The notes beneath the pieces are model-generated. The model made no database searches. It was given only the letters and a program-made list of their open reading frames with translations, and was not told the origin of the DNA. DNA of 32,839 nt from an uncultured Saprospiraceae bacterium (GTDB taxonomy: Bacteria > Bacteroidota > Bacteroidia > Chitinophagales > Saprospiraceae): NCBI GenBank assembly GCA_937921595.1, contig CAKZTD010000134.1, positions 1 through 32,839 on the forward strand. The letters run 5' to 3'. Shown here piece by piece: positions 3,533 to 32,779 of the stretch. Position numbers and translations under genes: made by a program. Position 1 is the first letter of the stretch. The number at the start of each line of letters is the position of its first letter.

Positions 3533-4117
3533 TCAATCAGTATTTTCTAAGTCTAAAATGTACCACTCGACCTCTGCGATATCAATGTTATCTCGTCTTC
3601 CTTTTTTTATCGGTGCATAATGAGTAGAAAGATAATCTAGAATAATCGGTTTTCTATCTCCTAAATCCCAGAGGCCTTGTTTTTCCTGCATCCAAATAAT
3701 CATCTGTTCCCAACCTTCTCGAGTAGCTCGGTTTTGAGTGACTAATTTTGAAGAATGACAAACCGTACAATTTGCACGAACTTCATCAAATCCTGGAGCT
3801 ACCACAAAACCTGTTTGAACATGAATTCCATTTTCTACTCGATCATAATCTTCATCCTTTTCAGTGGATCTATTTGTTGTTACTTTTACTTCCTGTTTTT
3901 CTTTAAAAAGGTTTTTAATATCATCTTCCAATGGAATGTAAAGTAGCGCTGCGAATACAAAAAACAAAATCGTTTTTGCACCAAAGATAAATGTACGCAA
4001 AGTATCTAACCAAGCTTCTTGATATTGATCTTTTTGTTTATCGTTTAATCCTTCAGGTGTCTTCATCAAAACAGATTTTTTTAAAATAGCATTTGTTTCA
4101 TTGTCAATTTTGGTCAC
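3533..4117 (-). CDS. Membrane-anchored monoheme c-type cytochrome, partner of the sulfite-oxidase-like enzyme
   Basis: A 194-aa protein with one hydrophobic segment (about residues 43-62, ILFFVFAALLYIPL) and one heme c motif, C117-T-V-C120-H121, so the C-terminal part should face the periplasm. A Met-rich stretch after the motif (GWEQMIIWMQEKQ) could supply the distal heme ligand. The gene follows the molybdoenzyme gene after 11 bp, so the two probably form an operon in which this protein takes electrons from sulfite (or S-/N-oxide) oxidation and passes them to the respiratory chain, as SorB does for SorA. The start used is GTG at 4117, close to the upstream stop, which suggests translational coupling; an ATG at 4066 (MKTPEGLND) is an alternative. 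The pairing is inferred from context and the heme motif. Confidence 0.8.
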   Translation of the reverse strand: MTKIDNETNAILKKSVLMKTPEGLNDKQKDQYQEAWLDTLRTFIFGAKTILFFVFAALLYIPLEDDIKNLFKEKQEVKVTTNRSTEKDEDYDRVENGIHVQTGFVVAPGFDEVRANCTVCHSSKLVTQNRATREGWEQMIIWMQEKQGLWDLGDRKPIILDYLSTHYAPIKKGRRDNIDIAEVEWYILDLENTD

Positions 4118-4128
4118 TCGCTGACTTG

Positions 4129-5376
4129 TTAGGTTACTTTAATTGCAACCCGATGACAAGCATTATTTAAATAACCTTTCGGATTCCAGCCAGGTAAAAG
4201 CATCGGTTGAGTTTTTCCATTGCTGTCTTTAGCTCTTGCCCAAACTTCATAATAACCGACTTTTGGAAATTTAATTTTTGTAGAAAAACGTTGCCAAGCC
4301 AATCGATTTGCAGGTTTGTTTAATTCGCAAGTTTTCCAAGTACTTCCAAAGTCAATAGAATATTCAACGCTTTGAACTTCTAAGTCACCAGCCCATGCAT
4401 GACCTCGAATTGGTAAAGTTTGATTGAGTTTTATTTGTGCCCCCGTTTTTGGAAAAGTGATTAATGATTTGACCGGCATGCTTTCTATGATGCACATGTC
4501 TTCGTTTTCAACTTTCGAACCTGGTGCAACAGGATTGCAAGGAACACGATATGCTTGACCAGTCATTTTTGTTCCATCATGTACCTTATTTCTAATACTG
4601 ATTCTTTCTAACCATTTTCCAGAACAAGAGGCTGGCCAACCACCAAAAACCAATCGTACCGGATAACCATTGAGCAATGGAATGTCTTGTCCATTCATAG
4701 ACCAAGCAATCAGACTTTCATCTTCCATGGCTTTGGGAATTGGTACCCCTCTGGAAATTGGATCTTTTTTAGGATCGCCACTCAAGTGCATATCTTTTCC
4801 ATAATAAGCAATGTATACCGCATCTGATTTTAGACCAATATCCTGAAGTACATCTTTCAGTCTAACTCCAGTCCATTCTGCACAAGCAACGGCACCGAGT
4901 CCCCATTGATTTCCTTTTGCCGGGGGATTGAATTCCTTGCGACCATTACCTCCGCATTCTAACGTCAATTGATAAGTATAGGTTTTGAATTTTGATTTCA
5001 ATTCATCCAAAGTATAAGTCTTCTTTTGCTTTGCTGATTCTCCATCAAAAGAAATGCTCCATGTTTTAAGATTAATCTCTTTTCGGTTTGGAGGTAGTCC
5101 ATTATTTCTAACAAAAAACAAATCCCCAGGAGTTACATCATCATCAAGTAGGTGAGGAGGTGTTTCTGCATTGATTGGTCGATCATTTAAGATAATCATT
5201 TCCGAATGCTTTCCTGGAAGATTTTGGAAAGCAGGATGATCCTCTAAAGCCACAGGAACCAAGCCGGCAGGAAGATTATTGGCAAATACAATCGAAGTAC
5301 CTAAAGCTAAGCTCATCGAAGCGAGTGTGCTTTTCCGAATAAAATTTCTTCTGTTAAGTAGAGTTTTCTTTTTCAT
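4129..5376 (-). CDS. Tat-exported molybdopterin sulfite-oxidase-family oxidoreductase (SorA/SoxC-like)
   Basis: The protein is 415 aa from the ATG at 5376. The N-terminus NRRNFIRKSTLASMSLAL is a twin-arginine signal, as expected for a periplasmic enzyme that folds with its cofactor in the cytoplasm. The oxidoreductase molybdopterin domain (about residues 70-260) contains the ECGGNGR motif, whose Cys141 would coordinate molybdenum, and WSMNGQDIPLLNGYP, typical of the family. The C-terminal third is the Mo-co dimerisation domain (SVEYSIDFGSTW, GYYEVWARAKDSNG). The family oxidises sulfite to sulfate or related substrates. An in-frame ATG at 5406 would add ten residues before the Tat motif; I prefer 5376 because it gives the usual short basic leader. 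The downstream heme c protein is the likely electron acceptor. Confidence 0.9.
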   Translation of the reverse strand: MKKKTLLNRRNFIRKSTLASMSLALGTSIVFANNLPAGLVPVALEDHPAFQNLPGKHSEMIILNDRPINAETPPHLLDDDVTPGDLFFVRNNGLPPNRKEINLKTWSISFDGESAKQKKTYTLDELKSKFKTYTYQLTLECGGNGRKEFNPPAKGNQWGLGAVACAEWTGVRLKDVLQDIGLKSDAVYIAYYGKDMHLSGDPKKDPISRGVPIPKAMEDESLIAWSMNGQDIPLLNGYPVRLVFGGWPASCSGKWLERISIRNKVHDGTKMTGQAYRVPCNPVAPGSKVENEDMCIIESMPVKSLITFPKTGAQIKLNQTLPIRGHAWAGDLEVQSVEYSIDFGSTWKTCELNKPANRLAWQRFSTKIKFPKVGYYEVWARAKDSNGKTQPMLLPGWNPKGYLNNACHRVAIKVT

Positions 5377-5504
5377 AAAAAATGAATCGCTGTTATTTCT
5401 CCCCAATATACAATTATTCTAAAATGCTATACTCAATATGTGAATCAGGTTTGAAAAGTAATATTATGGATCCTAAGCGTTTAATTTTAAACTCAGTATA
5501 TAAA

Positions 5505-12805: not shown

Positions 12806-12929
12806 TCAAGTTATCAAAGTAACAAGCAAACAACGCAGCGTAACAAGTAATTGATAAGTTAGCAAAGTAACAAGGAATTACCCATTGTTTCTTTGCTAAC
12901 TTATAAACTTGTTCCTTTATAAACTTGTT
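12806..12929. repeat. Fold-back array between convergent genes (ATAAGTTAGCAAAG inverted repeat)
   Basis: A perfect 14-bp inverted repeat, ATAAGTTAGCAAAG (12854-12867) and its complement (12891-12904), surrounds a 23-base centre that can pair a few more bases (ACAA/TTGT). Flanking it are partial copies of the same words: AAAGTAACAAG at 12815-12825, AGTAACAAG again at 12865-12873, and TTATAAACTTGTT twice (12901-12913, 12917-12929). The last copy overlaps the final codons of the minus-strand gene. It may serve as a bidirectional terminator, but direct plus inverted copies suggest a repeat element. Confidence 0.6.
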
Positions 12930-15900
12930 TTATTTTCCTCCCTTCCGGAGCGATCAATATTATTACTATTTGCTTGTTGCTTACCCATCAAAACAATATC
13001 CTGGACGTTCACATAATTCGGCGTATTGACAATGTAAAATAAAGCATCCGCAACATCGCTAGATTTTAAAGGCTGAAAATCGTTATAGATTTTAGCTTTT
13101 TCCTGATCTTCAAATCTCACAAAAGCAAATTCTGTTTCTTCTACATGTGCAGGACTTACTTGTCCTACTCGGATATTGTGTTTGTATAAATCCAGTCTCA
13201 TTGCTCTGGTTAAAGAATCAACCGCATGTTTAGTGGCACAGTATACATTTCCATTTGGATAAACTTCTTTTCCAGCAGTGGAACATACGTTAATAATATG
13301 TCCTGATTTTCTTTTTACCATATGCGGAGCGACTGCTCGGGTAAGGAAAAGTAGACCTTTGATATTGGTATCAATCATGGTATTCCAATCCTCAATATCC
13401 CCTTCATGAATCGGAGCAAAACCTTTTGCTAATCCAGCATTATTAATTAAAACATCAATGTTTCTCCATTCCTCATCTAGATTTTCTATCATGGATTTTA
13501 CCTCTGCTATATTTCTAACATCGAAATTTAAAGTTTTAATATCATTGTCATAAGTCTCTTTAAATTCAGTTTTTAAAGCTTCCAGACGATCTTCCCGTCG
13601 ACCAGTGATGATGATTTTAAAACCATGTTCCGCAAATTTTCTAGCAGTTGCTCTTCCAATTCCAGAAGTACCTCCAGTGATTAAAACAATTTTATCATTA
13701 TCGTAAACTGGAGCTGGAGGAGTTTTAGAAAGTGTTTGAGTATTTAGATCTTCTTGGTTTTTAAGATTAAAAGCAAGATCATTTTCAGGTGTTTTTAATT
13801 CTGAATTAATACTCCATGCTTTGCTATAATAAAGCGCTGCATTCATTTTGTCACCGAGTTTATGATAAAGCAAGGCTAGATCATAATTGACAAATTTATG
13901 ATTAGGATTAAGTTTTAATGTTTTTAAATAATTCTCTAATGCTTTTTTAGGTTTCCCTTGTTGTTCGTTTTGGATTAAACCTAATTGGTAATAAGCATCT
14001 TCATTTTTCGAATCTTGTTTAATTGCCTTTTTAAAATACTTAGCAGCTTGCTTAGGCTTTTCAGCATAAAATCCAGCAGTAATTAAACCTAGTTTATAAT
14101 ACACTCCAGTTTCTTCTGGGTGCAGATTAATGACTTTTTCATAATAGCTTTTTGCTAAAAGAAAATCATTATTCTGTTCAGAAATTTCTGCTAAAGCTTT
14201 ATAAGAAGGGTAGTGGTTTGGATCAAGTTTTATTATTTGCTCAAATTGAATAGCCGCTTTGTCAAGATCATTAGCTTCCTCTTTTAGAGTATGAGCATAC
14301 TGGTATCTTACTTCAACATTTTTAGGATGTTTTTCAATTAAAGCTTCAAAAGTTTTGCTTCCTTTTTGATGATCACCATCCATCATTAGTGCTCCAGCAG
14401 CTCCTAATGCTGAACTGATAAATATGGCTTGATCTTCAACCTCTTCATCCGTTTTTGCTCCTTCTAGAACATCCGCTTCATATATTTCTTGAACTAAGGC
14501 TTGTTGCTCTTCCTCCTCGTCGTCTTCCTCTTCTAATTCATCTGTTATATCTTCAACTTCAATACCTTCCATTGGATCGAAATCTTCTTCTTCCTCCTCT
14601 TCTAATTCATCAGTGATGTCTTCAACATCAATGCCTTCCATCGGATCAAAATCTTCTTCTTCTTCTTCTTCCAATTCATCGGTAATATCTTCAACTTCGA
14701 TACCCTCCATTGGGTCAAAATCGTCATTGGTTGGAGGTTCTTCTTCTAATATTTCAGGAGTGATATCTATGTTTTCTGGAATGATCTCATCAATAGCCTC
14801 TTCAGAAATGTTTTCTTCGATAGGAACAACAGGAGTATTTGGAATAATCGCCCCTATGGTGTCTTCTATAGTCGATTCAATTACTGGTTCGTTTATAACT
14901 GGCGGAATAACTTCTGCCACTATTTCTTCCTGGAAGACTTCATTCAAAGTTTTAGTACTTGAATTCTCTTTAATAGATTCAGAGTTCAAGTCAGAACGGT
15001 TATCAATATTAGGAAGTTCTGGAGATTCTATATGCTCTACTATATTTTCAGTTTCTAAATAATCAACTTGTTTTAAAACTTCATTGACCTCTTCTTCTTC
15101 TTTGAGCATTGCTTTTTCAGCTATAGTCAAAGGAGTTGTAGTTTTTACTTTACTAGCTATAGTTTCTGTTACCTTATTAATATTTGTTTTTGATGGAGTA
15201 TTTTTTTGAAACAAATCATTAATAGATGGTTTCTCAATCGGTGTATTTACCGGAGGAATATTACTAGAGTTAGCAGGGATCTTTGCAGAGATCTCTTCAA
15301 TGCTTTCAGCTGCTAGTTTTAATGAATCTGTTTTTGGAGATACTTTAGCATTTACCTTTTGAGCAAGTACTTCATTTAATGCTGGAGTCGATGTTGGATT
15401 AGAAACTCGGGAATTTATACTTGAAGGAGTAGGTGTACTTTTGGGAGCAGTATTAGTAGATGCGGTTGTGCTTGGAGTTGTTATACTGCTTTTACTTGCT
15501 CCAACTGACTTGATGTAATTTTGATGCAAGGTGGCATTGCCATGTTTTTTAAAAAACAATTCAAAATTATTGAAAACCAATTGGTCATAAGTCCAAAAAT
15601 CTTTGTTCCTCACTAATCTTAAAAAGTCTCCAATTTCACTTGATATTTCTTTTACACTTTGAAGCTTTGCATTGAACATCTCTTCATGAGCAGGTTCAAT
15701 AGATCGCTTTTGTTTACGCATTTCTAAATACTTCTCTTGCCAAAAATTCATATACCGAATCACATTGCTGACCCGACTAAATGAAGTCTCCACATTTCCG
15801 TTTGTATACTGGCCATCAACTACAACTATTCTCATAGATTCAGCCACAGAAGAATTTTGAAGAAAATTGAACATGTTTTGCATACAGACTTCATCCTTCA

Positions 15901-16093
15901 AAAGGTTGTCACTCAATAAGAGAATCCCTGGAACTTTAGTTTCAGCGATCAAAAAGGTCAAACCTTCGTTATTCTTTGTTTCTAAAGATGAAAGTGGGAT
16001 AAACGTGAAATTAGCTTTCCCTAATTTTTGAACAATGTCATTTGCTACAGACTTGTTTTCTTCACAGTAGGCAATGTATAATTTAGAAGACAT
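12917..16093 (-). CDS. TIR-like / TPR / short-chain dehydrogenase fusion protein
   Basis: A 1058-aa cytoplasmic protein without signal peptide. Residues 1-105 look like a TIR domain (LYIAYCEEN, alternating strands and helices, GILLLSDNLLKDEVC, MRIVVVDG), but the position of the NADase glutamate, three after Cys70, is Asn73. A helical part (about 110-190), a Ser/Thr/Pro-rich linker (190-330) and a very acidic stretch with three 23-residue repeats (FDPMEGIEVEDITDELEE) follow. About 552-764 are five to six TPR units (AIQFEQIIKLDPNHYPSY). The C-terminus (about 800-1035) is a complete classical SDR oxidoreductase: T806-G-G-T-S-G-I-G, NNAG, Ser in NVCSTAG, Y951-x-x-x-K955, so it should bind NAD(P)H and be active. 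The substrate is unknown. AT-rich TATAATTTG-like repeats fill the leader (16101-16169). The gene may be co-transcribed with the TlpA-like gene 90 bp upstream. Confidence 0.85.
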   Translation of the reverse strand: MSSKLYIAYCEENKSVANDIVQKLGKANFTFIPLSSLETKNNEGLTFLIAETKVPGILLLSDNLLKDEVCMQNMFNFLQNSSVAESMRIVVVDGQYTNGNVETSFSRVSNVIRYMNFWQEKYLEMRKQKRSIEPAHEEMFNAKLQSVKEISSEIGDFLRLVRNKDFWTYDQLVFNNFELFFKKHGNATLHQNYIKSVGASKSSITTPSTTASTNTAPKSTPTPSSINSRVSNPTSTPALNEVLAQKVNAKVSPKTDSLKLAAESIEEISAKIPANSSNIPPVNTPIEKPSINDLFQKNTPSKTNINKVTETIASKVKTTTPLTIAEKAMLKEEEEVNEVLKQVDYLETENIVEHIESPELPNIDNRSDLNSESIKENSSTKTLNEVFQEEIVAEVIPPVINEPVIESTIEDTIGAIIPNTPVVPIEENISEEAIDEIIPENIDITPEILEEEPPTNDDFDPMEGIEVEDITDELEEEEEEDFDPMEGIDVEDITDELEEEEEEDFDPMEGIEVEDITDELEEEDDEEEEQQALVQEIYEADVLEGAKTDEEVEDQAIFISSALGAAGALMMDGDHQKGSKTFEALIEKHPKNVEVRYQYAHTLKEEANDLDKAAIQFEQIIKLDPNHYPSYKALAEISEQNNDFLLAKSYYEKVINLHPEETGVYYKLGLITAGFYAEKPKQAAKYFKKAIKQDSKNEDAYYQLGLIQNEQQGKPKKALENYLKTLKLNPNHKFVNYDLALLYHKLGDKMNAALYYSKAWSINSELKTPENDLAFNLKNQEDLNTQTLSKTPPAPVYDNDKIVLITGGTSGIGRATARKFAEHGFKIIITGRREDRLEALKTEFKETYDNDIKTLNFDVRNIAEVKSMIENLDEEWRNIDVLINNAGLAKGFAPIHEGDIEDWNTMIDTNIKGLLFLTRAVAPHMVKRKSGHIINVCSTAGKEVYPNGNVYCATKHAVDSLTRAMRLDLYKHNIRVGQVSPAHVEETEFAFVRFEDQEKAKIYNDFQPLKSSDVADALFYIVNTPNYVNVQDIVLMGKQQANSNNIDRSGREENKTSL
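14524..14730 (-). repeat. Three 69-bp tandem repeats in the acidic region of the fusion gene
   Basis: The DNA encoding DFDPMEGI[ED]VEDITDELEE recurs with CCAT[TC]GG[AG]TC at 14569, 14638 and 14707, exactly 69 bp (23 codons) apart. Copies differ mainly at third positions, so the repeat is kept at the protein level. It lengthens a Glu/Asp-rich flexible linker between the TIR-like and TPR parts. Confidence 0.9.
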
Positions 16094-16183: not shown

Positions 16184-17524
16184 TTAATTTAGTTGATCTT
16201 TTTCGTTGAGTAAATCATTTACAAAAGATTTAAAATCACCAACGAAGGATTCATAAGTAGTGGTTGCAGGGCCTGAAAATCCAGTATGAATTCTTCTTAC
16301 CTTATTATTACGATCAATAAAGATCATTGTTGGATAAGATAAGATGTGATTGAGCATAGGTAGAGAAGCCGCAGCTTCTTTTTTATCAAAATACCCTCCA
16401 AGTAAGAGATCATAATTCATTCCAAATTTCTCCTTGTAATTTTTCAATGCTTTCATTGATTTATCTTTTTCTCGATACCTTTCAAAACCAATTGCAACCA
16501 CTTCGAGATCTTCATGATTGTTTTCTTTTAAATAATCAACCAAGAAGGCAGTTTCGTCTCGACAATTAGGGCACCAGGTTCCCATAATTTGAACGATTTT
16601 GACTTTATTTTGAAAGCGTTCTTCATCAAGACTGACCATTTGACCATTTATATTTTCCAAATTGAAATTAAAACGATCATAACCTTCTTTTAAGTAGGTC
16701 AAGGTATCAGGACTTCCAAGGGTGTACTCAGTATTACGGAAAGCTTTCCAAATTGTTTTATAATGAGAGCCAGATTGAAAAGATCCGACCAAAGATTCAT
16801 CTTCTAAGATTTTAGCCTCAAACAGAAAAGCATGTGCTCCATCAAAGCAAGAGAGGTAGGCTTTATTGTCTTGGACTGTTCCTTCAAGGAATCGATAATC
16901 TCCAGTTTCTGTTCTAAAAGTCCCCGTGAGATAGTTTCCTTTTTGTTCAAACTCACCAATCGCTGCATATGGATCCTCATCAGTAGAAAAAGTTGTTTCC
17001 CATTTTCCTGTAAGATCAATCACTGGAGGTTTTTTTAATTGGCTAAAACGATGGCCCTTTCCAAATTTAGCTTTAAAAGGTATTTTATAATCTGGTCCTC
17101 GATATGGAACAAACCAATTTCCAGCGATTTTGTCATCTTCAAAGCCAGCTCGAATATAGGTGCCATAAACAGGAAAGTTGATAAGGATGGAGTCATTATT
17201 AGATGCCCGATCATGCCAGGTGGTAATGTCATCAATTTTGATTCTTTCCGGACCATTGATGATTTCGATATGAAATTTAGTAGCATCCTCATAGATGACT
17301 TCGAAAGTAAAAGGTAGTTCACCTTCTGTAACTTCTGAAATACTTTGTACGATTTTGTCTTTGGTTCTTTTTCCTGTTTGAACAGGGATGCCGGCAGGAT
17401 GAAGCTCTAAAACTGCTCTCCATTTTCCAGGTGGTATGGTTGAATATTGGTTTTCAATAGTAAAACATCCTGAGAATGTAAAGCTAAGGAAGGCCAATAG
17501 AAGTAAGGTCCAGTATTTATACAT
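16184..17524 (-). CDS. TlpA/ResA-like thioredoxin-family lipoprotein
   Basis: A 446-aa protein starting with a lipoprotein signal (LLLLAFLSFTFSGC, Cys20). Residues about 25-260 are a beta-rich part with two lipocalin-like halves (KWRAVLELHPAG..., KWETTFSTDEDPY...) common in front of Bacteroidota redoxins. The C-terminal 160 residues are an AhpC/TSA-thioredoxin-type domain with the active site W-C318-P-N-C321 and a cis-Pro stretch (SYPTMIFID). This should be a periplasmic membrane-bound thiol:disulfide reductase, possibly serving cytochrome c maturation or Cys-rich secreted proteins. It reads toward the TIR-like/TPR/SDR gene, 90 bp away; a shared function is not evident. Redoxin fold is clear; partner is unknown. 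Confidence 0.88.
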   Translation of the reverse strand: MYKYWTLLLLAFLSFTFSGCFTIENQYSTIPPGKWRAVLELHPAGIPVQTGKRTKDKIVQSISEVTEGELPFTFEVIYEDATKFHIEIINGPERIKIDDITTWHDRASNNDSILINFPVYGTYIRAGFEDDKIAGNWFVPYRGPDYKIPFKAKFGKGHRFSQLKKPPVIDLTGKWETTFSTDEDPYAAIGEFEQKGNYLTGTFRTETGDYRFLEGTVQDNKAYLSCFDGAHAFLFEAKILEDESLVGSFQSGSHYKTIWKAFRNTEYTLGSPDTLTYLKEGYDRFNFNLENINGQMVSLDEERFQNKVKIVQIMGTWCPNCRDETAFLVDYLKENNHEDLEVVAIGFERYREKDKSMKALKNYKEKFGMNYDLLLGGYFDKKEAAASLPMLNHILSYPTMIFIDRNNKVRRIHTGFSGPATTTYESFVGDFKSFVNDLLNEKDQLN

Positions 17525-17718: not shown

Positions 17719-18258
17719 TTACTTTGCTCTATCTCCGACGAAATGATCGTCTTTATATTTAAAAAGGACATTGAACGTTGTAAGACTTCCATATATTCGA
17801 GTCAGGTATTGTTGCAAATTTACCTTCTCTTCATCACTAAGATTGGTGCTGGAATTTATCCTTTGCTCCATCACTCTTAAACGATCTCGGACCATTACTA
17901 TTTTATGGAAAAAACTATCGATTGGAATTTCTTTAGACTTCATGGAATCATCTCCTGGTTTCAGGATCATCGTTCCATTCGTCCATTTATCCCCAAGATC
18001 AACAATTTGAGAATATCCTGACCAAGTTTGTAATATCTTAATTAAAGATTCTTCCGCATCAGAAAAGGAAACTGCTTCTTGTGCTTCGATAGCCTCGATC
18101 ACTTCTAGTTTTTCATAATTGCGACCAACATCTTTGATGCCATAGGTGATAAAGCAAATTTCATAAGCTGCTTCATGTAATTGGATAACAACTCCAGCGC
18201 CATATGCTGGATGACTCACTCTTGACCCGATACCTAATGTTTGTGTCATGACTTCCAT
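17719..18258 (-). CDS. Conserved-type hypothetical protein with tudor/KOW-like N-terminus
   Basis: A soluble protein of 179 aa from the ATG at 18258 (MEVMTQTLGIG). I do not recognise a named family. Residues about 6-55 (GSRVSHPAYGAGVVIQL, then ITYGIKDVGRNYEKLEVI) resemble the small beta-barrel at the C-terminus of UvrD/PcrA helicases, a fold that binds RNA polymerase or nucleic acid. The rest is helical and charged (LIKILQTWSGY, NLSDEEKVNLQQYLTRIYG). The frame extends to an ATG at 18288, but those extra residues look like translated leader; an ATG at 18249 is also possible. It is a single-gene unit with its own terminator. A link to transcription or repair is only a guess from the barrel. Confidence 0.75.
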   Translation of the reverse strand: MEVMTQTLGIGSRVSHPAYGAGVVIQLHEAAYEICFITYGIKDVGRNYEKLEVIEAIEAQEAVSFSDAEESLIKILQTWSGYSQIVDLGDKWTNGTMILKPGDDSMKSKEIPIDSFFHKIVMVRDRLRVMEQRINSSTNLSDEEKVNLQQYLTRIYGSLTTFNVLFKYKDDHFVGDRAK

Positions 18259-18369
18259 TTTTTTTCTTTTAGGGTTTAGAAATAACAATGGATATTACGA
18301 CTCAAGCTGAGGAAAGGTTTCTAAATTAACGAATACTTTTTGAAGATTAACAGATAGGAGAGCATAAAT

Positions 18370-28762: not shown

Positions 28763-29800
28763 ATGTCAAACCAATTTTCGATAAGTTCATTCATTGCAAT
28801 ATCAGATAATCAAAAAAAGGTAAATAGAATTTATATAACCGTTTTCTTTTTGATTATCACACTCAATGTATTAATTGCAGCCTATTCTTATTTATTGAAA
28901 GAACCATTGTTTTTTTTTACTTGCGATGCTTTTGAATTGTTTCTTGCAGGGAGTGTTGCGTATTTGGTAATGTATAAAATACTACCTCATAAATCCATAG
29001 GGATTAAGATTGTTACATTTATAAGCATCTTGTTGTTCTTTTTAGGATTAGCTTTTTTAAAACTTTATAGAAGAGGCATTCCATTTGATGCATGGAGCAG
29101 ATCTAATTTTACCGATTATGTTGGATTGATTTTTATCTTTACCTCACTTTTTTACATTTTAAAAAATCTAAACTTACTGATTAATAATTCTTATCTAAAA
29201 ACAAAGCAAGCATTAGAAGAGGCAGAACTTTTACTGTTAAGACAACAATTCAATCCGCATTTTTTATACAATGCATTCAATTCATTGTATAGCATGTCTA
29301 TTAAAAAACATCCGAATACTTCAGACAGCATTTTAAAGCTTTCTGGAATGATGCGCTATTTGACTGATGATGCATCTGTTTCAGGGACTTTATTAAAGCA
29401 TGAAATTAAATTTATAGAAGACTATTTAGAGATTGAAAAAATCAGATTTGGGAATGATGCTAATATTTCTTTTAAATTAAATGGAGCCTTAAAAGGACAA
29501 TTGATTGAACCTTTGTTAATGATCAACTTGGTGGAGAATGCTTTTAAACATGGATTTTATACCAATAATGATTCAGCTTTTGTAAATATAGATGCCCAGT
29601 TATCTGAAGATCATTTAATTTTTAAGATTAGGAATAGCGTTTTTAAAAAACAACATTTTCAAGAATCAGATCGAGTAGGGAAGGGATTGCATAATCTTCG
29701 GAAACGTTTGGATTTATCCTATGGACAAGATGCAAGTTTAAATATTGAAGAAAAAAAGAATGAATTTATTGCCACATTAAATATCAAATTTAAAGCATGA
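28763..29800 (+). CDS. Membrane sensor histidine kinase, LytS/YehU family
   Basis: A 345-aa protein. The first 145 residues hold four hydrophobic segments (VFFLIITLNVLIAAYSYLL, LFLAGSVAYLVMYKIL, IVTFISILLFFLGLAFL, YVGLIFIFTSLFYIL) and no recognised sensor domain. After a short coiled stretch (LKTKQALEEAELLLLRQQ) comes the His_kinase motif FNPHFLYNAFNSL with the phosphorylated His166, then an HATPase domain with the N box (INLVENAFKHG) and G box (GKGLHNLRKRL). It phosphorylates the response regulator encoded next, whose gene overlaps it by four bases (ATGA). The signal is unknown. An A-rich leader (AAAATTAAAAAAATC) precedes the ATG. Confidence 0.92.
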   Translation: MSNQFSISSFIAISDNQKKVNRIYITVFFLIITLNVLIAAYSYLLKEPLFFFTCDAFELFLAGSVAYLVMYKILPHKSIGIKIVTFISILLFFLGLAFLKLYRRGIPFDAWSRSNFTDYVGLIFIFTSLFYILKNLNLLINNSYLKTKQALEEAELLLLRQQFNPHFLYNAFNSLYSMSIKKHPNTSDSILKLSGMMRYLTDDASVSGTLLKHEIKFIEDYLEIEKIRFGNDANISFKLNGALKGQLIEPLLMINLVENAFKHGFYTNNDSAFVNIDAQLSEDHLIFKIRNSVFKKQHFQESDRVGKGLHNLRKRLDLSYGQDASLNIEEKKNEFIATLNIKFKA

Positions 29801-30489
29801 AGAATTATAAAGTTGTAGTGATTGATGATGAACTATTGGCAATTGATGTGATTACACATTATTTTTCCGTGTTTCCGAATTATGTTGTTTTGAAAACTTT
29901 TATTAATCCGGTAGAAGCGGTTTCATTTTTAAAAATGAATAATGTCGATCTTGTTTTTACAGATATAGCGATGCCTAATATTTCAGGAATTGATTTAGTG
30001 AAGTTGTTAAAGGATACAACAAAATTTGTGATGACTACTTCCTTTTCTGAATTCGCTTTGGAGAGTTTCGAATTGAACGTGGTCGATTATTTATTAAAAC
30101 CAGTATCATTAGAACGTTTTTCGAAAACCTTAAAACATTTTGAATCTTCTGATAAATTGGAAACAGAAAGAGAGCAGTCTTTTTTTGTAAAAGATGGAGA
30201 TGAGTTTATTAAAGTGTTTATCGAAAAGATAGACTACATTGAAGGGATGAAAGATTATGCTAAGATCATTTGTGGCAACAAATATTATATGGTTTTAAAA
30301 ACATTAAAAGCATTAGAAGAATTTCTTAAGCCTTATGATTTTCAGCGAATCCATAAATCCTTTATTGTTCCCCTCAAGAAAATTGATCAATCAAATAGCA
30401 GATGCGTATTGGTCAATAATAAAGAAATTCCACTTGGACCTGCTTATCGAGAAAGACTTAAAGAATATTTAAATAAGCATAAATTGTAA
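29797..30489 (+). CDS. LytTR-family DNA-binding response regulator
   Basis: A 230-aa two-domain protein. The receiver (residues 1-115) has the acidic pair in VVVIDDE, the phosphorylation site Asp56 (VFTDIAMPN), Thr/Ser (MTTSFSEFAL) and Lys (VVDYLLKPVS). The C-terminal LytTR domain (about 130-228; FVKDGDEFIKVFIEKIDYIE, FQRIHKSFIVPLKKID) binds DNA as a beta-strand fold. The start codon overlaps the kinase stop (ATGA at 29797-29800), which implies translational coupling and a cognate pair. The direct repeats at 28637-28686 are the natural candidate for its own operator. Confidence 0.93.
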   Translation: MKNYKVVVIDDELLAIDVITHYFSVFPNYVVLKTFINPVEAVSFLKMNNVDLVFTDIAMPNISGIDLVKLLKDTTKFVMTTSFSEFALESFELNVVDYLLKPVSLERFSKTLKHFESSDKLETEREQSFFVKDGDEFIKVFIEKIDYIEGMKDYAKIICGNKYYMVLKTLKALEEFLKPYDFQRIHKSFIVPLKKIDQSNSRCVLVNNKEIPLGPAYRERLKEYLNKHKL

Positions 30490-31398: not shown

Positions 31399-31483
31399 AT
31401 AAAAGACTTGGTGAAAGACTAAAGTTTAGAATTTTATCAAAAAAATGCATAGCAACTTAAAGACCATCCAAATAATAAAGCAT

Positions 31484-32779
31484 ATGAAATTTAGAATCTT
31501 ACTCTTCTTCTTGTTTTTTTGTTTTAGCTTATCAGCTCAAAATACTCCAACAGATTCCATCTTATCTCGATTGATCAATTTAAATCAAGTTGCTCAAGCT
31601 AACGAAGATTTTTCTAGCTTCGAACCTTTAAAAGAATTATTAAAAGACGTGGATGTCATCATGCTCGGAGAACAATCTCATGGGGAGGCTGTTGCTTTTG
31701 AAACCAAGATCAAATTGGTGAAATATCTTCATGAAGAAATGGGCTTTGATATATTAGCTTTTGAAAGTGATTTTTATTCCTGTCATAAGGCTTGGGAAAT
31801 GATAGAACAAGGAGAAGAGGTAGAGATTGCCTTAGGAAAGAGTGTTACTTTTTTGTGGTCTATGGTGAAAGAATTTAAGCCATTGGTTAAATATATTGAG
31901 CGACGGTTAGAAACTGATCGGCCGTTGAAAATAACAGGTTTCGATGGTCAGTTGTATAGTAGATATTCTGAGAAAGAATTATTAGGGGATTTAAAAGAAT
32001 ATTTAGAGGCTCATCAATTTCAAGATTTGGAAGGAGGGAGAATGAAACACCTAGAAGAATCTATGGGTTTTGTCAACACTTTTAAGTTTAAAAAGTATAA
32101 GAAAAAAGAGGTAGAAAAAGATATTCGGTTCATTAATGAAATGATGAATTTCGTTGTAAATGAAGTTGACGATGATCAATCTTCTTTTTGGACTCAAACC
32201 TTGAAAAGTTTCAAAATATATCTGTCCGATTTAAAATTGAAAACAGATGACAGAGATGAACAGATGGCAGATAATCTATATTGGCTTAAGGAAAATAATC
32301 CCGGTAAAAAGATTATTTGTTGGGGAGCGACCAGTCACTTTTTGTATAATTCGGATGAAGTAAGGATGAAGAGTTGGGCCATTCAAGTGCTTGCGGCTAA
32401 TTACTATAAAAAACATAAGATGATGGGCGAGTATGTGAAAGAAAAATTTGGAGATAAATTATTTACAATTGGTTTTGTAGCTCATGAAGGAAAGTATGGA
32501 ACCACACGTCAAAAAAAACTAAAAAAACCTAAAGGAAAAAGTTTAGAATATTTACTGGGGCAATCCGAATATGATAATTGTTTGCTACCATTAAAAGGAT
32601 TACAATTGAATGATTATCTTTCCAGACCGTTGGGGAATTTTTATATGAAAAATGATATCTCAAATTTAATGGATGCGGTAATCTTTAATCGGAAAGAGCG
32701 AGCTCCGGATTTGGATAATAATTTGTTTTTGAAAATTTATCCTGAGAATAAATATATTAAGCCTGATTTGAGTGAATAA
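31484..32779 (+). CDS. Secreted erythromycin-esterase-superfamily protein
   Basis: A 431-aa protein from the ATG at 31484 (MKFRILLFFLFFCFSLSAQ, a clear signal peptide); an ATG at 31445 would add 13 residues. The erythromycin esterase family pattern is visible: LGE63-QSH66-G, FE94-SD, GFDGQ and GATSH285-F, the Glu and His positions conserved in the EreA/EreB/EreC group, where they activate water. LGE-x-[ST]HG and the downstream FESD are the strongest cues. The family includes macrolide esterases, but many environmental members have no known substrate, and export with a signal peptide suggests a role on the envelope. Resistance should not be assumed. The stop at 32779 lies inside the window. 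Confidence 0.85.
   Translation: MKFRILLFFLFFCFSLSAQNTPTDSILSRLINLNQVAQANEDFSSFEPLKELLKDVDVIMLGEQSHGEAVAFETKIKLVKYLHEEMGFDILAFESDFYSCHKAWEMIEQGEEVEIALGKSVTFLWSMVKEFKPLVKYIERRLETDRPLKITGFDGQLYSRYSEKELLGDLKEYLEAHQFQDLEGGRMKHLEESMGFVNTFKFKKYKKKEVEKDIRFINEMMNFVVNEVDDDQSSFWTQTLKSFKIYLSDLKLKTDDRDEQMADNLYWLKENNPGKKIICWGATSHFLYNSDEVRMKSWAIQVLAANYYKKHKMMGEYVKEKFGDKLFTIGFVAHEGKYGTTRQKKLKKPKGKSLEYLLGQSEYDNCLLPLKGLQLNDYLSRPLGNFYMKNDISNLMDAVIFNRKERAPDLDNNLFLKIYPENKYIKPDLSE

Follow-up and report, generated by a model that had tools for sequence, protein, structure and literature searches.

A fusion of a TIR-type domain, TPRs and a YdfG-type dehydrogenase in Saprospiraceae, and its possible role as an enzyme scaffold

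Most work on TIR domains concerns their part in immunity, as enzymes or as adaptors. Among the adaptors, MyD88 lacks the glutamate that is catalytic in TIR domains that consume NAD+ (NADases). YdfG of E. coli, a short-chain dehydrogenase/reductase (SDR), is an NADP-dependent 3-hydroxy acid and malonic semialdehyde dehydrogenase. We analyzed a gene that joins both kinds of domain in one polypeptide. It lies at positions 12917-16093 (minus strand) of a 32,839-nucleotide stretch of DNA from an uncultured Saprospiraceae bacterium (contig CAKZTD010000134.1 of assembly GCA_937921595.1); this whole stretch is called the window below. Read from ATG to stop, the open reading frame (ORF) encodes 1058 amino acids (protein P0001), and the opposite (plus) strand of the same interval is full of stops.

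We put at roughly 55% the explanation that, taken as a whole, this protein is a housekeeping NADP(H) enzyme in which an immune-type TIR-TPR module has become a non-enzymatic scaffold. The preliminary description of this DNA, made from the sequence alone, knew of no characterized protein with such an architecture, and no description of a TIR-TPR-SDR protein was found among open-licence papers in PubMed Central either (domain-architecture databases and subscription papers lay outside that search). The words TPR, dehydrogenase and Bacteroidetes do not occur in the main text of one survey (PMC7075850).

Domain layout and the dehydrogenase

The fusion protein is made of four parts, all encoded on the minus strand. 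Residues 1-190 (15524-16093) correspond to a TIR-type domain, recognized through the profiles of relatives, with a C-terminal extension that we judge to be helical. Residues 191-555 (14429-15523) have the composition of a low-complexity linker, rich in Ser, Thr and Pro and then strongly acidic. About six TPRs occupy residues 556-785 (13739-14428), and a YdfG-type SDR, identified with Pfam, NCBIfam, a PDB match and an alignment, occupies residues 799-1045 (12959-13699). The preliminary description had proposed a TIR-like domain, an acidic repeat linker, five to six TPRs and a complete SDR fused in 1058 residues; the ORF, the Pfam matches (TPR and adh_short both match the window protein) and the relatives, which have the identical domain order, bear this out.

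The SDR is the most conserved part of the fusion. Relative to the window protein, three relatives (L059, L060 and L061) have identities of 81, 71 and 68% in the SDR, 68, 61 and 48% in the TIR-type domain, and 56, 47 and 53% in the TPRs. The Pfam model adh_short matches residues 801-990 (E 1.1e-59), and the residues expected of a classical SDR are all present: TGGTSGIG at 806-813, NNAG at 884-887, R832, N910, S938, Y951 and K955. The top NCBIfam model is YdfG (NF007829), with a score of 249.3 bits that is below the equivalog cut-off of 411. Among solved structures, the closest chain is 3asu (E 2.2e-61); 3asu and 3asv are E. coli YdfG.

These residues are kept across the fused relatives. Of 90 selected at an SDR score of >180 bits, all have the catalytic N, S and K as well as the Arg that follows strand 2, and 89 have the Y. 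An Arg at this position goes with a preference for NADP. From these residues, the SDR is very likely to be active. By analogy with YdfG, it would prefer NADP(H) and might act on 3-hydroxy acids or malonic semialdehyde. A published paper (PMC11961710) describes YdfG and RutE as E. coli reductases through which malonate semialdehyde is drained.

One fusion, L146 (5992-8433), fell outside the 90 because of the score threshold. Its TIR and TPR parts are typical and its SDR is only 34% identical to that of the window; a different SDR may have taken over at the enzyme end.

The linker and the TPRs separate the two ends of the protein. The linker has few aromatic residues and a net charge of -84 over residues 331-555, and is probably disordered. 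It includes an acidic tandem repeat of 69 bp (23 amino acids) in 2.9 copies (14526-14722, minus strand), with the motif DFDPMEGI at residues 458, 481 and 504. Pfam TPR models span residues ~564-759 (TPR_17 at 73.1 bits, with TPR_14, TPR_19 and others also above cut-off), and six repeats can be counted by eye within residues 564-785.

The TIR-type domain and its missing glutamate

Residues 1-190 very probably have a TIR fold, as judged from the family rather than from the window protein by itself. The preliminary description had called this region TIR-like. The window protein matched no TIR model in Pfam (best 25 of 35 families; the window row alone matched two families, neither of them TIR), but 29 of 30 aligned family rows, all except that of the window, matched TIR_2 (best E 6.8e-10). 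Compared with the PDB, the 30-row family profile matched the TIR chains of MyD88 (E 2.4e-4), and chains of TICAM2 and TIRAP at E 0.1 to 2.6, interspersed with unrelated chains. A 75-row family profile aligned by hhalign to seven TIR domains from the genome that contains the window, which had been collected with the Pfam model independently of the family profile, gave a probability of 95% (E 3.2e-8), compared to 0.3% for the SDR family and 0.1% for the redoxin neighbor as controls. The family profile also matched nine proteins from outside the family over the full length (99.6%), a value that is partly circular because that profile had served to select these rows. Of the nine, eight match TIR_2 at 2e-11 or better, and the ninth (L263) has only WD40-type models among the best 25 of 65 families. 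Two residues of the C-terminal extension, Y114 and W118, are invariant in 111/111 family rows and are the family's own signature.

A match of the window N-terminus to the phage protein gp67 (PF20881, E 4.6e-4, below cut-off, found in 2/30 members) was put aside as likely due to chance.

The window's TIR-type domain lacks the catalytic glutamate. In the family alignment, the position of this residue in NADase TIRs (in helix C, the E of WCxxE) is Asn73 (codon at 15875-15877, minus strand). Among 111 non-identical family rows, this position is Glu in 10, Asp in 5 and another residue in 96. The strong outside relatives keep Glu in 9/9. The alignment held 13 non-family rows, of which four are not counted as strong relatives: three ordinary TIRs that are poorly aligned here (L001, L006 and L202) and an apparent chance match (L204). 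Some of the nine have EAD11, Schlafen AlbA_2, WD40 or TPR parts, a make-up that we take to be of the conflict-system type; in three the TIR is the only named domain, and one carries thrombospondin repeats.

The preliminary description had seen in the fusion two nicotinamide-linked modules. Asn73, the 96/111 rows with neither Glu nor Asp, and the 9/9 outside relatives with Glu do not support this for the window copy. We think it highly probable, going by these residues, that the window's TIR-type domain has no NADase activity.

The chromosomal slot, distribution and history

The fusion is characteristic of the Saprospiraceae. With the TIR profile at E 1e-3, 245/399 genomes of the family matched (177/276 good genomes; 77/112 genera), with a single match in most of the genomes listed. 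Of the 245 matches, 15 were weaker than 4e-12; three of the 15 were inspected (G073, G170 and G201) and were other TIR proteins without an SDR, which by our estimate leaves the TIR domain of the fusion in about 230 of the 399 genomes. In a sample of the order, 31/198 genomes matched, 25 of them in the family (the window's included) and six outside it at 6.2e-15 or weaker; in a sample of the phylum, 9/296 matched, six of them outside the family at 3.5e-16 or weaker.

We also scanned named genomes, taking the best 80 of 132 relatives. Their titles are mostly Saprospiraceae and otherwise Saprospirales, Chitinophagales, Bacteroidetes/Bacteroidota or bacterium. Isolates with the fusion include Phaeodactylibacter luteus, P. 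xiamenensis and Flavilitoribacter nigricans (loci L152, L163 and L171). The TIR and SDR parts are in one ORF in 66 of the 80 loci; a contig ends before the SDR in 11, two have two neighboring ORFs, and one is a complete ORF without an SDR. L127, L173 and L265 each have two neighboring ORFs in one draft genome, possibly because of a frameshift or assembly error, and were not joined. What look like split genes in G004 and G025 are due to contig ends and not to fission.

The fusion and the standalone SDR share a chromosomal slot. In the window, the gene upstream of the fusion (f1, 16184-17524, minus strand) encodes 446 amino acids with a redoxin domain, the motif CPNC and, by eye, a lipoprotein-like N-terminus. 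A redoxin gene is directly upstream on the same strand in 70/90 fused, 7/7 split and 39/48 standalone loci; four of the 48 standalone loci are from other families, and all four are without it. The 20 fused loci counted as lacking it include six that end short upstream, three (L067, L076 and L139) in which a redoxin gene does precede the fusion but farther away or with a lower score than the count permitted, and one (L147) in which it is two genes before the fusion. The median gap from the redoxin gene to the next gene is 47 nt in fused and 1 nt in standalone loci, so the TIR-TPR part lies between two genes that otherwise almost overlap.

Farther upstream there is often a gene like f2 (17719-18288, minus strand; 189 amino acids, with a weak match, below cut-off, to the PcrA/UvrD tudor domain) and then a sodium:dicarboxylate symporter gene. 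The neighbors of the window's fusion are the redoxin, tudor-like, M23 peptidase and symporter genes. In the neighborhoods compared, no TIR or signaling gene is conserved beside the fusion.

The standalone SDR is likely to be the older form and the fusion the later one, because outside the family the best matches listed to the SDR lie in frames of 246-306 amino acids. Within the family, an orthologous SDR is present in 127/150 genomes, in a frame of at least 420 amino acids in 78 and of 223-287 amino acids in 49; a few of the 49 are cut by contig ends (G004) or split (G074 and G173, both of genus g70). The TIR profile, which did match in the family-wide scan, matched none of 25 genomes with a standalone SDR. 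Outside these 25, G073, G170 and G201 have a standalone SDR and a different, Glu-keeping TIR protein elsewhere in the genome.

The split form is found in genus g70, where the order is the redoxin gene, a TIR-TPR gene and the SDR gene, the last two being adjacent on one strand and 8-11 nt apart in 4/4 loci. In trees of the SDR and redoxin together (117 rows and 61 rows), most fused and split rows form a group that also takes in a few standalone rows. The latter would fit losses of the TIR-TPR part; branch support varies, and the two trees disagree on some placements. In the TIR tree, g70 is on a long branch inside the fused group (99%). This nesting suggested that g70 arose by a later fission, and an approximately unbiased (AU) test with the SDR and redoxin did not uphold it: placing g70 outside the fused core was not rejected (p 0.56), and the likelihood was higher when 34 fused and split rows were constrained to group together without g70. 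Genus g70 may equally represent the state before fusion. On the 117-row tree there are 10 changes among the three states (fused, split and standalone), and the fusion may have had one origin or several.

Three other places in the window are recorded here in their own right. A molybdopterin sulfite-oxidase-type protein (PF00174, PF03404) is followed by a 194-amino acid protein with the haem motif CTVCH and no Pfam match (3533-5406, minus strand), possibly a sulfite dehydrogenase pair. The gene of a LytS-type histidine kinase (PF06580) overlaps at its end the next gene, whose 230-amino acid product looks by eye like a response regulator (28763-30489 for the two, plus strand). An erythromycin esterase family protein (PF05139, E 7.6e-27) is at 31445-32779 (plus strand).

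Possible function and comparison with known systems

The preliminary description left the choice between defense, stress signaling and metabolism undecided. A core, metabolism-linked role is favored because the slot is common to the standalone SDRs, most genomes have a single match, and searches for mobile elements and known defense systems were negative. Searching 72,556 plasmid and 50,697 phage records with the window's TIR domain gave no match (tblastn, E 1e-3; a single divergent query with no positive control). None of four window proteins (the fusion, f1, f2 and the M23 peptidase) matched a PADLOC model, and neither did the TIR-TPR protein of g70.

We propose that a TIR-TPR module came to lie beside the SDR gene and was then fused to it, in the SDR's own slot and within the Saprospiraceae. 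A possible kind of source is the 451-amino acid TIR-TPR protein at L255 (4148-5503; genome G038, of another family of the order), which keeps the Glu and has PADLOC matches to SAVED-TIR and ThsB models. The catalytic end of the fusion would be a YdfG-type, NADP(H)-dependent housekeeping dehydrogenase working within a larger complex. The window's TIR-type domain, without its NADase glutamate, would act as an assembly or docking surface, a function suggested by analogy with adaptor TIRs. The TPRs would bind a partner protein, and the acidic linker, probably disordered, would tether the enzyme at a distance. Both the TPR partner and this order of events are inferred.

Several observations weigh against this proposal. 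Ten family rows keep the Glu (L046, L056, L104, L118, L122, L127, L135, L136, L138 and L170); six of them are from genus g33 (L046, L056, L104, L118, L122 and L136), and nine of the ten have CM(F/Y)E in common. Fourteen rows have a Glu one residue earlier. The loss is thus not family-wide, and by this measure some members could be enzymes. The redoxin gene is truly absent upstream of some fused loci (for example L112, L245, L250, L253 and L254). Downstream of the usual redoxin gene, L124 (5992-8514; genome G128, also L074) has a complete 840-amino acid TIR-TPR ORF with no SDR, and the best SDR match in G128 is only 35% identical; the TIR-TPR part can thus stand without the dehydrogenase. 

On the TIR tree, L072 and L116, both with the Glu, group with L124, which has neither the Glu nor an SDR, at an unresolved fork near the base, a placement that would fit the Glu being the older state, although we take this as a hint only.

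A more elaborate form of the proposal is that the domesticated immune TIR-TPR part is a regulatory platform, on which TIR-TIR filaments or clusters switch the dehydrogenase on or off, or else signal its redox state to the cell's other TIR proteins. We consider this doubtful and offer it as speculation. If true, it would be a metabolic counterpart of the animal adaptor TIRs, and the Glu-keeping members and the SDR-less L124 would be surviving intermediates on the way from weapon to scaffold.

Of the alternatives, the one that survives best, and which we still consider unlikely, is a redox switch in which the SDR senses NADPH/NADP+ or its substrate and this state is relayed through the TPRs and the TIR-type domain to other TIR proteins. 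Such proteins do coexist with the fusion: the window genome (G000) has eleven TIR_2 matches elsewhere, eight of them above cut-off (on contigs C369, C333, C371, C122, C349 and others), and these are potential partners. A fusion that keeps the SDR catalytic residues and, like MyD88, its best match in the PDB, lacks the NADase Glu is also what a switch would look like. However, no conserved TIR or signaling gene adjoins the fusion, and the slot is held by standalone SDRs in genomes that lack the TIR domain, which indicates that the enzyme is useful by itself.

It is improbable that the fusion is a neutral accident, in which genes of an operon came to be read through and the TIR-TPR part is of no use to the enzyme. 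The standalone SDRs among fused ones in the tree and the existence of split forms are compatible with such an accident. However, a useless extension of 790 residues would not be expected to keep Y114 and W118 invariant in 111/111 rows or to be so widespread, with the SDR in frames of at least 420 amino acids in 78/127 genomes.

Slightly less probable is a defense protein whose TIR domain consumes or cyclizes NAD+ on infection and whose SDR senses or corrects the nicotinamide pool. Speaking for it are the nearest outside TIR relatives, all with the Glu, which include proteins of what we take to be a conflict-system make-up, and the 10/111 family rows that keep this residue. The window protein has Asn, however, and 96/111 rows have neither Glu nor Asp; most of the genomes listed have one match, in a slot beside redoxin and transporter genes, and there was no match to PADLOC models or, with the single divergent query, to plasmids or phages. 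The least probable reading is that the N-terminus has some other Rossmann-like or flavodoxin-like fold instead of that of a TIR domain, with an SDN-x-L motif due to chance or old ancestry: the window sequence itself matches no TIR model, but TIR_2 matches 29/30 relatives, hhalign gave 95% (E 3.2e-8) against 0.3% and 0.1% for the controls, and the 99.6% full-length match, partly circular, was to nine outside proteins of which eight match TIR_2.

We return to the scaffold proposal for what it would mean. A TIR domain without the catalytic residue across a family, inside a core metabolic enzyme, would show that immune modules can be tamed in bacteria. The standalone, split and fused forms of one locus occur in different genera, which makes the steps directly testable.

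The fusion resembles each of several known systems in part. It has a TIR domain in common with Thoeris ThsB and other TIR NADase defense proteins, and differs in that L255 matches the PADLOC ThsB models and the window protein does not. Bacterial TIR-TPR and TIR-effector proteins (L255, L262, L261 and L263) have the same TIR subclass and the W of the extension, and L255 and L262 have TPRs as well, as in the window protein. In contrast to it, these four keep the catalytic Glu and the YKxSIxxFM stretch, both missing in the window, and have no SDR. The adaptor TIR of MyD88, with those of TIRAP and TICAM2, gives the best PDB sequence matches to the family profile; the similarity is weak, and the window protein is bacterial, with its TIR-type domain joined to TPRs and an enzyme. 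The enzyme end, finally, shares with E. coli YdfG the catalytic residues, TGRR after strand 2, and the GLAxG and TEF-VRF segments, but whereas YdfG is a standalone chain of 248 amino acids, the window SDR carries ~790 additional residues.

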